Virus record (IMG/VR): IMGVR_UViG_3300008448_000421
Span: 1-30,114 of that record
Length of the DNA stretch: 30,114 bases
Strand: one strand, 5' to 3'
DNA from: a virus
This document shows positions 16,864-29,690 of this stretch, one piece after another; positions within the stretch are counted from its first letter, which is position 1; every line of letters begins with the position of its first letter. Made by a program: the position numbers and the translations under genes. The notes beneath the pieces were generated by a model. The model ran no database searches. It worked only from the letters and a program-made list of their open reading frames with translations, and was not told where the DNA came from.

Positions 16864-16892
16864 ATTGTAACCCGACAATAGGGTAGAGTCAA
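16864..16892 (-). promoter_or_regulatory. sigma70-type promoter
   Basis: On the minus strand TTGACT (16892-16887) and TACAAT (16869-16864) are separated by exactly 17 bases. Each box matches the sigma70 consensus at 5 of 6 positions. Transcription would start near 16857, giving a leader of about 24 bases that contains the GGAG site of the GTG-start gene at 16833. It should drive the Gam-like, 82-aa, SSB-like, XRE-like and primase genes. Confidence 0.85.
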
Positions 16893-20379: not shown

Positions 20380-20560
20380 TTTCTGCGAGGAGCTTTACTT
20401 GGTGTTTTAGTAATCTCGATTCTACCGTAAGTAGGGTAGATAGTTCAATTGCAAAGTCCCAGTCCTTACGAAGCACAGCTTCCTCAAACCCTCTTACATA
20501 TCGGCGCATCTTAAGGATGCTTTCTGAGTAATCTACGATCTCAGTTTCATGTGTCGCCAT
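20339..20560 (-). CDS. hypothetical protein, 73 aa
   Basis: A small helical protein. I start it at ATG 20560 (MATHETEIV), because GGGGAT lies about 8 bases upstream; a GTG 24 bases further up is possible. Its start overlaps the polymerase stop by 14 bases and its end overlaps the nuclease gene by 41. No motif is recognised. Its location between polymerase and nuclease suggests a small accessory factor. Confidence 0.6.
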   Translation of the reverse strand: MATHETEIVDYSESILKMRRYVRGFEEAVLRKDWDFAIELSTLLTVESRLLKHQVKLLAENDGIPYQVELQQP

Positions 20561-22394
20561 AAGACAATCCCCATCCGGATTCACAAGCTACGGGCAGACC
20601 CTCTGCCCAACTAGGTGCCGTAGACATACACTCTTCGATGTACCGCACGGCTTCTTCCCGTTCCTCGGCCTTGCATACTACCACCACGGCATCATGCACG
20701 GTCAACACAGCCCGGTACCGCCTACTGATTTTCAGCATCTGTTCAGCGACCACGCACCGCGCCAACCCCTGCACCACGTTCTCAACTATGGTGCCGAACC
20801 ACAGGGGGGTTTTACCCTTACGGCTTTCGTAAGAATACTTAACCTCATCCGCTTCTGTGATACTAGACAGGCCGGGGTACCTGATCTTATATCCGCTAGG
20901 TAATCCAATAGCATTAGTGCCAAAGAACCGTAGACACCCCTTGTTACTGAAGCCCCACGGCTTCTCATTGTTCATAGACTTAAGCGCCTCATGAACCTCG
21001 TACCAAAACGCTCTAATCTTGTAGTTTGATTCCCGGTAAACCTTGATGATTTCAATGCACTCATCCTCGGTCTTCTCAACGCCAGCAGACTTCAACTCAG
21101 CGCGAAGTTTTTTCGCTCCGGTTCCAAACCCGCAACCAAGCACAACCGTCTTGGAAAGAAAGCGTTCTTCCTTTGTAATTTCTTCCGGTTTTTTCTTGTA
21201 AATCTTACTGCCCATTAAACGATACACATCCTCTTTATTTCTAAATGCTTCTAGGATGTCGTTCTGATCTGCAAGCCATGCCAGTACACGCGCCTCAATC
21301 TGTGAAGAGTCACAGTTAATGACGACATGACCGGGCGGTGCCACCATAGAATTCTTTAGAGCTTTCTTCTTAGGATCTCGGCTCGGTAAATTTTGCAGGT
21401 TGATCTGATCTCCACCACCCCAACGCGACGTATGCGCCCCGCAGTAGAACAGGGGGATGGGTAGTTTGCCTTCGTTTCTTTTGGCGATGGCGATGAAGTT
21501 CTCGATCCGGCCCTCCTCCATCGTGGATTTAGTCCCAAGGCGGACAGAACATAAAAGCTGTACGAACGGGTCGTCCATGTTTTGAAGGTCGATGAACCCT
21601 GAATCTTTTTTACCCAACGCAGGTATGGACTTACCCGTAGCGGGGGACGTTTTCATAGGGACTTTGATCCCTCGTACCCTCAACAGATCCGAAAATTTCT
21701 TATTAGAAGACAGAGATTCACGGACTTCTTCGTTGGTGTTTACGCAAAGATACTTTTGCAGACTATGTAAAGCTTCCTCTTTCTCCGCACGGATTGCGGA
21801 CAATCTCTCCTCTAACACCGCAGAGTTAACGTGCATCACAGGCTCTACGAAGAACCTTAGAGTAAGGTCGATCAGCCTTAATTCTTTTGCGGGTACTTTA
21901 GGTAATAGACGCTTGAACAGCCGATACGTCAGGTCTACGTCATTAACGCAGTAGCCGCCATATCTCGCCAGTTCCCAGTCGGTGAAGTCTGCCCGCCGCT
22001 TACCCAGCGCGTCATGAACCTCAGTACCTTTAACTCCTAGCGCGTAATGCTCAGACAATGAAGCAAGGGATGCAGACACATGCACCCCCCTAACAAACCG
22101 AGCCATGCTCATTGTGTCGGCCCATACTTTCGGATTAACCCCGTAGCGCCACCCAAGGATGGCTGCGTCGAACATCGTGTTATGACACACGATCATTGAG
22201 TTAGAGAAGTCAAACTTATTCAGAAAGCCCGCAACGTCGTCACCGCTGTACCACTGGGTTTCTTCTTCGCCTTTCTTAATAGCCAGCCCGATAACTTCAA
22301 AGCGCGGGTCGTTAACATACTCCTCGGTCGTCAGCTTAGACAGGGAATAGTCTTTAGCGTAGTAAGTCTCAAGGTCAATCGTGTAGATGCTCAT
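20547..22394 (-). CDS. family A DNA polymerase with 3'-5' exonuclease, 615 aa
   Basis: The phage replicative DNA polymerase. The N-terminal exonuclease has D7/E9 in IDLETYY (ExoI), CHNTMFDAAIL (ExoII) and YCVNDVDLTY (ExoIII), so proofreading looks intact. Polymerase motif A is CDSSQIEAR with catalytic D362. Motif B is R411...K415 TVVLGCGFG. Motif C is TVHDAVVV with catalytic D568. Leu419 aligns with E. coli Pol I residue 762 and Phe423 with Tyr766. Motif C has Ala569 where Glu is usual. The length is shorter than T7 gp5 (704). I use ATG 22394 (MSIYTIDLE); a GTG 39 bases upstream lacks a ribosome site. The gene overlaps the 59-aa gene upstream by 20 bases. Confidence 0.92.
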   Translation of the reverse strand: MSIYTIDLETYYAKDYSLSKLTTEEYVNDPRFEVIGLAIKKGEEETQWYSGDDVAGFLNKFDFSNSMIVCHNTMFDAAILGWRYGVNPKVWADTMSMARFVRGVHVSASLASLSEHYALGVKGTEVHDALGKRRADFTDWELARYGGYCVNDVDLTYRLFKRLLPKVPAKELRLIDLTLRFFVEPVMHVNSAVLEERLSAIRAEKEEALHSLQKYLCVNTNEEVRESLSSNKKFSDLLRVRGIKVPMKTSPATGKSIPALGKKDSGFIDLQNMDDPFVQLLCSVRLGTKSTMEEGRIENFIAIAKRNEGKLPIPLFYCGAHTSRWGGGDQINLQNLPSRDPKKKALKNSMVAPPGHVVINCDSSQIEARVLAWLADQNDILEAFRNKEDVYRLMGSKIYKKKPEEITKEERFLSKTVVLGCGFGTGAKKLRAELKSAGVEKTEDECIEIIKVYRESNYKIRAFWYEVHEALKSMNNEKPWGFSNKGCLRFFGTNAIGLPSGYKIRYPGLSSITEADEVKYSYESRKGKTPLWFGTIVENVVQGLARCVVAEQMLKISRRYRAVLTVHDAVVVVCKAEEREEAVRYIEECMSTAPSWAEGLPVACESGWGLSYGDT

Positions 22395-22554
22395 TATCTT
22401 TTTGTGGCCTGTTTGTGTGGGGACAATCTTCACAGTAAGGATTCCACCACCTATTAGCGATCTCCCTAGCTACTTCCTTTTTAACTCTTGCCCGTAGAAG
22501 ATCTTGATACAAACCCTCGATCCACCATATCTTATTGCCGCCCCTCTCATTCAT
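22375..22554 (-). CDS. small CxxC protein, 59 aa
   Basis: A short frame that fills the space between the VRR-NUC and polymerase genes. It starts at ATG 22554, 8 bases inside the end of the VRR-NUC gene, and ends 20 bases inside the polymerase gene, the same overlap style as its neighbours. A GAGG lies about 10 bases before the ATG. The protein begins MNERGGNKIWW, has a basic helix (LLRARVKKEVAREIANRWW) and a C-terminal CEDC pair followed by His. It could be a small metal-binding protein, although only two Cys are present. Function unknown. Confidence 0.6.
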   Translation of the reverse strand: MNERGGNKIWWIEGLYQDLLRARVKKEVAREIANRWWNPYCEDCPHTNRPQKDNEHLHD

Positions 22555-26946: not shown

Positions 26947-26958
26947 TTAATTAGTTAA
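26947..26958. repeat. palindrome variant TTAATTAGTTAA, copy 2
   Basis: This copy differs from TTAACTAGTTAA at one central base. It overlaps the stop codon of the VWA gene. The change still leaves stop codons in all six frames. Confidence 0.65.
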
Positions 26959-28267
26959 AGATAACGCGGCCTTTACCAGCCGGTGCTTTGAACTTCTTAT
27001 TGCAGTACCCACCACCGATCACAAAAATAGACGGCACGGATACGTTCCACTTAACCGGGGACTCGACCGCACCATCCGAGAACACCACCAAGCAATCGGG
27101 CTTGAGCTTGTTGGCAATCATGTAGTCAGACACGCAGCCCATGCGGGTACCGCCACCACCGGGGATGGAGATATGGGAGATGGTGCTTGACTTATCGGAG
27201 CGGATGATCTGCTCCTTCTGTACATCAGCGTCCCACCACAGGATGCGAATAACTTCAGGCTTGACAGACTCAGCGATCTTTATAGTCTCAGCTAAACATA
27301 CGGCTTGGTCGTCGTCGCTCATCGAACCCGATACGTCCTGTGCAATAACAATCTCTTTCGGACGGTGTGCAATGCTAGTGGGCAGGTAAACATCCTGCAT
27401 GACATAGCGACGATTGAACTGACGCCACGTATACGTGTCCTTGCCCTTGGTGCATGACGTAATGAACTCACGCAGAACCTCACGCCAGTCCACCTTGGGG
27501 ATAAGAGCGGCGGTAACGCTACGGTTAACATTACCCTTGGCCTTGCCTACTAATAACGAACCCTCACGGATCGCATGATCTACAGCATCAGCCAGCGCAG
27601 ACTGTTCCTCCGGGGTCATGGACTCGGCACCGTCCCAATCATGTGAATCCAGTCCCGCGCCATCGTCGGGCTGACCGGAACCGTTTCCAGCCTCGGGCTG
27701 ACCATCACCCTCGTTATCACCCTCACCCGTACCTGACTCACCGTCATCACATGGCTCGCCGTCTTCACCCTCATCGCCCGCCTCTTCACTAAGTAAGTCA
27801 AAGATTTCTTTGGCAGACAGGTTGCTGTAGTCGGGGTTATACAGTCCACCCTTGGGCATACGGGCAAAGGCCCCGGTCGGATCGGTGTCGATGATCCAGC
27901 CATTTACTACATAGTCCATGGCTTTGTTGGCCCGCACGGGGTCGATCTTGTGCAGGTATTTGTAGCCTGACAGATGCGTGAAGAGGATGTGCCCAGCCTC
28001 ATGCAGCACAAGGAAGTTAACCTCATACTCATCAAGCGTTGCAACGAACACCTCGTTAAACAACATATCCCGCCCGTTAGTAGCGGCGGTCTTAACCTTG
28101 TGCCCCAGCTCAACCATCATTAGCTTACCGATCTGCAAGACTAAGTAAACGAGACAGAAGCTCGGGTGGTTCATGATCTGCGAGATAGCCCGCGAGATGC
28201 GGGTGGCTGCATCCAACTCCTCGTAGATGGAGTAAGGGATGAACTTGTATTCTTCGATAGGGGTCAT
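26951..28267 (-). CDS. metallopeptidase-like VWA protein (DUF2201 type), 438 aa
   Basis: The partner type usually encoded with MoxR ATPases. The N-terminal domain carries VLHEAGHILFTH with H89-E90-x-x-H93 and a following NKAMDYVVN (D118), the pattern of the DUF2201 N-terminal putative metallopeptidase domain. A long acidic, glycine-rich linker (about 160-215) leads to a VWA domain (about 303-438) with the MIDAS residues D311-x-S313-x-S315, T374 in GGGTRMG and D398 in FSDG, all intact for metal binding. I use ATG 28267 with GGAG 8 bases upstream; the longer open frame to 28354 runs through a terminator hairpin and is not coding. It lies downstream of the ATPase and likely forms a complex with it. 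Confidence 0.87.
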   Translation of the reverse strand: MTPIEEYKFIPYSIYEELDAATRISRAISQIMNHPSFCLVYLVLQIGKLMMVELGHKVKTAATNGRDMLFNEVFVATLDEYEVNFLVLHEAGHILFTHLSGYKYLHKIDPVRANKAMDYVVNGWIIDTDPTGAFARMPKGGLYNPDYSNLSAKEIFDLLSEEAGDEGEDGEPCDDGESGTGEGDNEGDGQPEAGNGSGQPDDGAGLDSHDWDGAESMTPEEQSALADAVDHAIREGSLLVGKAKGNVNRSVTAALIPKVDWREVLREFITSCTKGKDTYTWRQFNRRYVMQDVYLPTSIAHRPKEIVIAQDVSGSMSDDDQAVCLAETIKIAESVKPEVIRILWWDADVQKEQIIRSDKSSTISHISIPGGGGTRMGCVSDYMIANKLKPDCLVVFSDGAVESPVKWNVSVPSIFVIGGGYCNKKFKAPAGKGRVIFN

Positions 28268-28283
28268 GACAGTAGCTCCAAAG

Positions 28284-28340
28284 ATTAGGTTAAAAACAAA
28301 AATAAAAATAACGAATAGGGTGAGGACAGCCCTCACCCTA
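28284..28340 (-). terminator. strong rho-independent terminator between ATPase and VWA genes
   Basis: On the minus strand TAGGGTGAGG and CCTCACCCTA (plus-strand arms 28331-28340 and 28316-28325) form a perfect 10-bp stem with a 5-base loop. A T-rich run of about 30 bases with four T-stretches follows. The tail ends just before the VWA leader, and I see no promoter between terminator and gene. Confidence 0.88.
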
Positions 28341-28477
28341 CCCGACCGCATCAACCCGAAGGGACACCCCCGAGGAATACAGGAAGCCCATAGAGGAAGC
28401 TTCGCGTAATCGAGTCTGCGATTGGCCCCGTTAAACCACGGTGGCCTTGGTTAACTAGTTAATAAAAACTGATGAAC
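28341..28477 (-). other. 137-bp noncoding stretch after the ATPase gene
   Basis: Between the ATPase stop and the terminator lies a stretch with no supported gene. It holds the palindrome at 28451-28462, a CCACGGTGG palindrome (28435-28443) and a repeated GGAAGC (28382-28387 and 28395-28400). No sigma70 promoter is evident. Confidence 0.5.
28451..28462. repeat. palindrome TTAACTAGTTAA, copy 3
   Basis: A perfect copy, 15 bases downstream of the stop of the ATPase gene and 183 bases upstream of the VWA start. Confidence 0.8.
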
Positions 28478-29605
28478 TTACAGAAGCGCGTCGCCGTTTT
28501 GTGCCATCCAAGTTACGCACTCGGGCTGACCATTGACGAACTTCTCAAGATGCTTGGCCTTACACACTTTGCGGAAGAACGACATCTGCAAATCCTTACG
28601 CTTGAACCGAAGCGTATACGTCACGCAAGCATCAAGCTCACGCAGCGTACTAATTCTTGAAACGCAATTGTTGAGTGTCAACATCGGCCCCACGCCAGTA
28701 TCGGCAACGGGCGCATTGAGGGGATCTTTAACAATTGTCTCAAAGAGAACCAAGTCTTTGAGAGTGTCGAAGAAAGACAACATCGACATAGACGCCGACA
28801 TACCGCAAGCCCCGGCAAACATCGCCAGTTGCTCGTCTTTAATAAACTCCTTGCGGTAGTAAGCGATATGGCTAGCCGCTTCAAGCGAGCGAGGGGACAC
28901 GAACGGCTCGCCGGGTTTGTTGGGGTTGAAGATCATGCTGTAAGTCAGCGCGTCGTCACCCTTGAGATCCTTCTCATCGACACCCTCGTAGTCCACGTAG
29001 GATTTGAACACACCGCTGAACTTCTCAGTCCAGTTAATAACGTCGGGGTGGATGTTGTTGTTAAACGCCCAGTCAACCCATCCGTCAAAGTCTTTCTTAA
29101 TATCAATGGGGATCAGACGGTTGATAAGGTGAGCGGCGAAGTTATCACCCACCCCATCTGCTGCATTGTTGCTAGTGGCAAACACAATCGACCCATCCGG
29201 CAGGGGGATGCCGCACAGGATCTTCTCAAGAATAAGGCGGGTGAACGCCAGCAATACCGGCCCCATGCACTTGCCCAACTCATCAAGCATGATGACCTTG
29301 GGACGCTTGCTACCCTCGCCAATCAGGCGGAACAGGGAATTGACAAAGAACTCAAGCTGCTTGGATTCCTTGTCCGGCATAGCCATGCCAACGTCGGGCA
29401 CATCCATGGTCGGACAATCAATGTAGATGTAGTCGTACTTATCGCCCAGTGTTTCCTTGAGCGCGGCCATGATGCTGGACTTGCCGATACCCGGCTCACC
29501 ACGCAGGAGAAAAGCTTTCTTGGTGCCGAACCGAGCGATCATCTTCGCTGCGGAACGCAGGGTGACACGGGGGGCACGGGCGAAGTTGGTATTGATAGCG
29601 GCCAT
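28478..29605 (-). CDS. MoxR-type AAA+ ATPase, 375 aa
   Basis: An ATP-driven chaperone-like remodelling enzyme of the MoxR group. Walker A is GEPGIGKS (36-43), Walker B VIMLDE (104-109), sensor 1 FATSNN (142-147) and R163 in HLINRLIP is the likely arginine finger. The C-terminal part (from about 200) includes a lid helical region and a family-specific extension. The downstream VWA protein is the expected partner, as in RavA-ViaA or CbbQ-CbbO pairs, where the ATPase acts on a target protein brought by the VWA subunit. The ATG is set by GGAG 10 bases upstream in the shared leader. A terminator hairpin and a palindrome precede it. Confidence 0.9.
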   Translation of the reverse strand: MAAINTNFARAPRVTLRSAAKMIARFGTKKAFLLRGEPGIGKSSIMAALKETLGDKYDYIYIDCPTMDVPDVGMAMPDKESKQLEFFVNSLFRLIGEGSKRPKVIMLDELGKCMGPVLLAFTRLILEKILCGIPLPDGSIVFATSNNAADGVGDNFAAHLINRLIPIDIKKDFDGWVDWAFNNNIHPDVINWTEKFSGVFKSYVDYEGVDEKDLKGDDALTYSMIFNPNKPGEPFVSPRSLEAASHIAYYRKEFIKDEQLAMFAGACGMSASMSMLSFFDTLKDLVLFETIVKDPLNAPVADTGVGPMLTLNNCVSRISTLRELDACVTYTLRFKRKDLQMSFFRKVCKAKHLEKFVNGQPECVTWMAQNGDALL

Positions 29606-29663: not shown

Positions 29664-29690
29664 CAAAGCTGGCCCACATAGGTGAGCCAG
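29664..29690 (-). terminator. terminator hairpin after the rightmost gene
   Basis: In minus-strand RNA CUGGCUCAC pairs with GUGGGCCAG (9 pairs, one G-U) around the loop CUAU, followed by GCUUUGUUU. The G-U pair is C/A on the plus strand, which points to a minus-strand element. The U tract is short, so termination may be partial. Confidence 0.7.

Follow-up and report, generated by a model that had tools for sequence, protein, structure and literature searches.

In the phage studied here, the genes for an AAA+ ATPase and a VWA protein are separated by a predicted intrinsic terminator, which probably lies inside an early operon served by processive antitermination, a strategy known from lambdoid phages; we assign this reading a probability of roughly 55%. 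The analysed stretch, hereafter called the window, is the complete 30,114-base IMG/VR phage record IMGVR_UViG_3300008448_000421. Its early and replication genes form a block on the minus strand from 30111 to 11924, which contains the 3' part of a 321-aa gene, the AAA+ ATPase gene, the VWA/metallopeptidase gene, small genes, and genes for a family A DNA polymerase, an SNF2 helicase and others. Two close relatives, L001 (99%) and L002 (97%), were compared with the window. L001 reaches further upstream and hence carries the missing operon start together with the complete 321-aa gene; the start is present in this one contig only, which limits the argument below, and the related phage G002 ends before it. 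Probably only polymerase that has acquired resistance to termination at the operon start gets as far as the VWA gene and the replication genes that follow, most likely through a known mechanism acting in an undescribed phage. We infer from sequence both the occurrence of antitermination and the element that may cause it. The features of the window are compiled in Table 1.

Table 1. Features in and around the ATPase-VWA intergenic region; positions refer to the window
Feature	Position	Strand	Remark
AAA+ (MoxR-like) ATPase, VWA partner	28478..29605	-	phrog_1297
VWA/metallopeptidase protein	26951..28267	-	DUF2201_N + DUF2201; phrog_1314
DNA polymerase gene	20547-22433	-	in the minus-strand block, beyond the VWA terminator
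Structured, constrained intergenic region ATPase-VWA	28268..28477	-	210 nt
12-bp palindrome TTAACTAGTTAA	28451..28462	.	one of 12 in the L001 early region
27-nt hairpin element CCAAGGCCACCGTGGTTTAACGGGGCC	28424..28450	-	outer stem covaries between copies
Predicted intrinsic terminator hairpin	28312..28344 (core 28316-28340)	-	14-15 bp
U-rich tail TTATTTTTATTTTTGTTTTT	28292..28311	-	directly after the hairpin
VWA ribosome-binding sequence GGAGCTAC	28272..28279	-	
Weaker terminator-like hairpin upstream of the ATPase gene	29669..29690	-	score -20.2

The first-pass annotation had placed a strong terminator with a perfect 10-bp stem and a long U-rich tail at 28284-28340, directly before the VWA gene, and both its position and its description were confirmed. 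The hairpin 28344-28312 (minus strand, CGGGTAGGGTGAGGGCTGTCCTCACCCTATTCG; predicted -23.7 kcal/mol) has a perfect 10-bp core, TAGGGTGAGG/CCTCACCCTA (28340-28331/28325-28316), around a loop of 5 nt, which is lengthened by four weaker base pairs, and seven of the first eight tail bases are T, thus showing the combination of GC-rich hairpin and U tract typical of intrinsic terminators. No perfect stem with a T-rich tail is longer in the window, and ten mononucleotide shuffles of the minus strand yielded one such site in total, with a stem of 6 bp. According to the d'Aubenton-Carafa rule it is also the sole minus-strand hairpin of the window to score above zero (+20.1 with the extended stem); counting the 10-bp core alone, the score falls to -3.6. 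Hence, the hairpin owes the attribute "strong" in part to its weaker outer pairs, and this moderate score is a point against our preferred explanation. Hairpin and tail are kept in L001 and L002, where the single stem change from A-U to G-U retains the pairing. Taken at face value, these features indicate that the hairpin would terminate transcription. In all three phages, no stop codon interrupts the VWA frame upstream across the terminator (28351-28268, minus strand), which would add a signal-anchor-like extension, MRSGRVRAVLTLFVIFIFVFNLIFGATV. A membrane-anchored VWA isoform beginning at ATG 28351 was considered and rejected, because U-rich tails encode such residues anyway and this start has no good ribosome-binding site, whereas the start at 28267 is preceded by GGAGCTAC; the extension is probably a by-product of the U tract.

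The earlier statement that no sigma70 promoter follows the terminator also held. A sigma70 weight-matrix scan of 28315-28268, after the hairpin, gave 3.5 bits at best, below 88% of the shuffles, and the best site in the whole VWA upstream region reached 4.3 bits, below 98% of dinucleotide shuffles. With the same matrix, a near-consensus early promoter was found in L001 (TTGACT-17-TATAAT, 1654-1682) that scores 15.7 bits, a value reached by 0 of 200 shuffles. On the minus strand of the window, a comparable score was otherwise reached only at 16892 (13.2 bits), downstream of the DNA polymerase and SNF2 helicase genes. Hence, no strong promoter separates the terminator from genes required for replication, and this arrangement is our principal reason for proposing antitermination. 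Transcription of the proposed operon would start at one sigma70-type promoter, located about 2.6 kb upstream of the ATPase gene as seen in L001 outside the window, and the transcript would cover the ATPase, VWA, DNA polymerase and SNF2 helicase genes. The polymerase would be made termination-resistant early by leader RNA, either by a boxA-like site with a boxB-like hairpin, by a 27-nt hairpin or by both, and would then pass the VWA terminator, at which unmodified polymerase would stop. The site at 16892-16864 (TTGACT-17-TACAAT, minus strand) precedes the 16426-16878 gene and is likely a second start for downstream replication genes.

The applied matrix describes sigma70 promoters, and the promoters used in the host of the window phage may differ, which weakens the case for antitermination. 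VWA could then be transcribed separately from a promoter of an unfamiliar kind, perhaps one that employs the TTAACTAGTTAA palindrome, while the hairpin would just end the ATPase unit. Such a use would agree with the presence of the palindrome upstream of many early genes. At VWA, however, the terminator stands between the palindrome and the gene and would be encountered by any transcript begun at the palindrome; furthermore, no match to sigma70 region 2 was found in the contigs, and between tail and start codon no repeat was seen except the ribosome-binding site. We regard a separate VWA promoter as very unlikely.

The palindrome itself, TTAACTARTTAA (TTAACTAGTTAA or TTAACTAATTAA), is present, with one mismatch allowed, in 12 copies within 8.3 kb of L001 (160-8471), where about 0.003 are expected. 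Four copies are located in the window (25418, 26947 with one mismatch, 28451 and 29651) and six in L002. They sit in non-coding DNA or overlap a stop codon, and the palindrome contains stop codons in all six frames. One copy is found 6 bp before a -35, and two are placed on either side of the main promoter, about 100 bp away. The remaining copies are mostly intergenic, and several adjoin the ribosome-binding sequence GGAGCTAC, which is common to the VWA, ATPase and 25753-26910 genes and the 321-aa gene of L001. The simplest guess is that the palindromes are operator-like sites. Short repeats in early intergenic regions and a shared ribosome-binding sequence (here GGAGCTAC) with an upstream palindrome resemble the start-associated sequences of cluster K mycobacteriophages and the stoperators of cluster A (PMC3203893, PMC9283540). 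However, cluster A stoperators are recognized asymmetrically, by a monomeric repressor (PMC9283540), whereas the sites in our phage are symmetric 12-mers, neither asymmetric stoperator sites nor spaced 17-bp inverted repeats, and no repressor was identified. Combinations of the palindrome with GGAGCTAC in other contigs were single sites without arrays and were judged unrelated. In L002, an extra small gene at 230-590, absent from L001 at this place, lies between direct repeats AAACCATCCTTTATTTATTAACTARTTAA, an arrangement that points to gain and loss of genes by way of the intergenic repeats.

Regarding an antiterminated operon, the leader of L001 offers candidate signals. Nut sites have the order promoter, boxA, hairpin, and in L001 the promoter is followed by a boxA-like site, a boxB-like hairpin and, after an untranslated leader of about 450 nt, the first gene at 2212. 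The boxA-like core CTCTTTAACA at 1728 lies 45 nt after the -10, i.e. in the leader soon after the promoter as in lambda-type nut antitermination, and the site (1726-1737) matches the E. coli rrn boxA at 10 of 12 positions, an incomplete agreement that was counted against the antitermination reading. There are 22 copies of this 10-mer in 1.73 Mb of strand, hence about 0.0013 occurrences are expected within 100 nt. A perfect 6-bp hairpin, GCATCG-ACC-CGATGC (GCATCGACCCGATGC; 1751-1765), follows 13 nt after boxA; such a hairpin is given by 1.4% of shuffles. A longer boxA string matched eight contigs, all representing one unrelated locus, and this was judged to be chance. The arrangement shares with the lambdoid N/nut system one strong early promoter, a leader with boxA-like site and hairpin, an intrinsic terminator between early genes and replication genes behind it. 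It differs in that the boxB-like loop (ACC or GACCC) is not of the GNRA type, the gene content is not lambdoid, and no N-like protein was recognised among the small early ORFs of the incomplete L001, where short N proteins are easily missed. A search for the Q antiterminator (PF06530) gave no match. Terminators within a long operon are likewise found in conjugation operons with processive antitermination, where they were explained as protection against spurious transcription (PMC8955417); those operons belong, however, to Gram-positive plasmids with a bipartite system, of which no counterpart was identified in this phage. Among the three routes to VWA transcripts named in the first-pass annotation, read-through, an unusual promoter or antitermination, the last is best supported by the promoter, boxA-like and boxB-like sites of L001 and by the replication genes behind the terminator; taken as a whole, that earlier interpretation finds partial support.

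The 27-nt hairpin represents a further candidate signal. The window copy lies about 80 nt before the VWA terminator, in a leader without boxA, and a second copy (CCAAGACCACCGTGGTTTAACGGAGTC) is found in the early leader of L001 at 2062-2088, about 380 nt after the -10 and about 325 nt from boxA. Both this distance and the lack of a boxA in the VWA leader speak against our preferred explanation. A third copy (CCAAGCCCACCGTGGTTTAACGGAGGC) is present at 3081-3107 of L037, a prophage-like record that is elsewhere unrelated in sequence to the window, and again it is situated in the leader after an early promoter (15.1 bits with the same matrix, reached by no shuffle). The outer three pairs read GGC/GCC in the window, GAC/GTC in L001 and GCC/GGC in L037, with inner stem and loop constant. 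L037 provided the one match to the 17-mer core in the viral collection outside the window's lineage; because it also has the five upstream bases and the outer stem, chance is unlikely. A degenerate search with other inner-stem sequences revealed no further member forming both stems. In genome contigs the 17-mer gave five matches, all of them lacking the CCAAG flank and judged to be chance. A search for the element that tolerated up to three mismatches, covering 398 Pseudomonas and 369 same-class species (767 entries), gave a single match, with three mismatches. The element was not found in Pseudomonas phage F116. The early leader of F116 does resemble that of L037 (101 nt at 73%), and a part of it is common to F116-type phages (30 records) and L037 (L037 2870-3180; L048, which is F116, 1400-1720). 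In these leaders the 3' hairpin before the first gene shows apparent covariation, GGCA/TGCC versus GCCCCTC/GAGGGGC, inside a TTTCC...GGAAA stem, which looks like an undescribed conserved leader RNA.

The two leader positions and the place before the terminator suggest a possible antitermination role of the 27-nt hairpin, and the copy before the VWA terminator may renew or gate the resistance of the polymerase. In mEp021-type phages, a third nut site (nutR2) is located downstream of gp32 (PMC11893012). In its full form, the proposal would be that CCAAG-NC-CA-CCGU-GGUUUA-ACGG-R-GNC is an undescribed cis-acting antitermination RNA that is used after the early promoter and before the strongest terminator, renews or gates resistance, and has moved between unrelated phages; we put this forward tentatively and consider it rather unlikely. 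The put RNA of phage HK022 is similar in being a structured element in an early leader, with no phage antiterminator protein found. From the start of its transcript, HK022 putR is about 270 nt away (PMC9378689), compared with about 380 nt after the -10 for the element in L001. Furthermore, put consists of two stem-loops in about 70 nt, close to the early promoter, whereas here one 27-nt hairpin of other sequence, without a conserved partner stem, is found, and one copy lies deep in the operon.

The gap between the ATPase and VWA genes is constrained. In comparison to L002, 5 of its 210 positions are changed, while the four-fold sites of the two flanking genes show 45 changes in 371, i.e. the gap has 5-fold fewer changes than the flanking silent sites (Fisher p = 2e-5). 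Within the gap, three sequences that are all close to one another were compared. Its folding was surpassed by only 1 of 200 shuffles (z -3.45). A blastn search with the gap and the L001 leader against 50,697 phage records returned chance matches only, and Rfam scans of the window, L001 and L037 found nothing relevant. The favourable folding would be in line with a gap that encodes a small RNA or contributes a processed 3' end. The hairpin would then form the 3' terminus of a stable structured RNA, which either derives from the ATPase transcript or starts at a promoter close to the palindrome, with VWA expressed by read-through; an unrelated gap of 250 nt at 18733-18484 has the same layout. The gap is, however, without an Rfam match, its 5' side is without a promoter, and much of its folding energy is supplied by the terminator itself, hence we regard a small RNA as improbable. 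The 250-nt gap (18733-18484, minus strand) is non-coding and separates an HNH-like gene from the SNF2 helicase gene; its structured part ends in a hairpin, TAGGGTGA/TCGCCCTA, resembling the VWA terminator. The first approximately 207 nt are identical in the related phage and all changes fall into the last approximately 45 nt; no Rfam match was obtained, and it is possibly a phage non-coding RNA.

The gap might also act as a conditional attenuator, in which alternative pairing or the translation of a short leader ORF blocks terminator formation. A 17-codon ORF (ATGGGCTTCCTG...GTCGGGTAG) does end inside the 5' arm of the stem, and its single change in L002 is synonymous; but it is without a convincing ribosome-binding site, and ORFs of such length are common by chance. 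A conserved alternative pairing upstream of the stem, which the earlier annotation had recommended to search for, was not found: the best upstream complement to the 5' arm reaches only -10.6 kcal/mol against -23.7 kcal/mol for the terminator hairpin, and hence a classical antiterminator is not supported. No antiterminator pairing mutually exclusive with the terminator, as expected for an attenuator or riboswitch, and no Rfam match was detected in the gap. This mode of control therefore appears highly improbable.

Finally, the hairpin might serve dosage control, as it was proposed before that it sets the ATPase above the VWA protein. A partial terminator with a fixed read-through fraction would then yield the excess of ATPase that a six-to-one complex needs. 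NorQ/NorD data are consistent with six ATPases per VWA protein (PMC9976466), and RavA and ViaA are present at about 350 and 90 copies, respectively (PMC3893208); both were counted in favour. Hairpins of unrelated sequence with U-rich tails after the ATPase stop were found in four of seven lineages, compared to 64 of 280 other gene ends; the lineages were counted by eye, including distant relatives with about 30-45% identity, and the 280 gene ends are from the same loci. Of these four, the three lineages other than the window's own carry the short hairpins CCCACG-nnnn-CGTGGG, GGGGGC-ATT-GCCCCC and TCCACG-ATGT-CGTGGA after the ATPase stop, which hints at recurrent punctuation after this gene. 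However, in the closest diverged relative (L003, VWA 45% identical) the two genes are 10 nt apart without any hairpin, two other lineages lack it as well, and the hairpins of the relatives are short (5-6 bp). Moreover, every downstream replication gene would drop too, and this reading would not account for the constraint on the 130 nt that precede the hairpin. Tuning of the stoichiometry by the hairpin is conceivable; we consider dosage control rather unlikely.

Collectively, what had been a bare terminator can now be tested as a case of operon control in a phage that is not lambdoid, with two candidate RNA signals named. The 27-nt hairpin, which matches no Rfam family, is the possible new part of this case. 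For the ATPase-VWA pair it means that expression is not readable from gene order alone.
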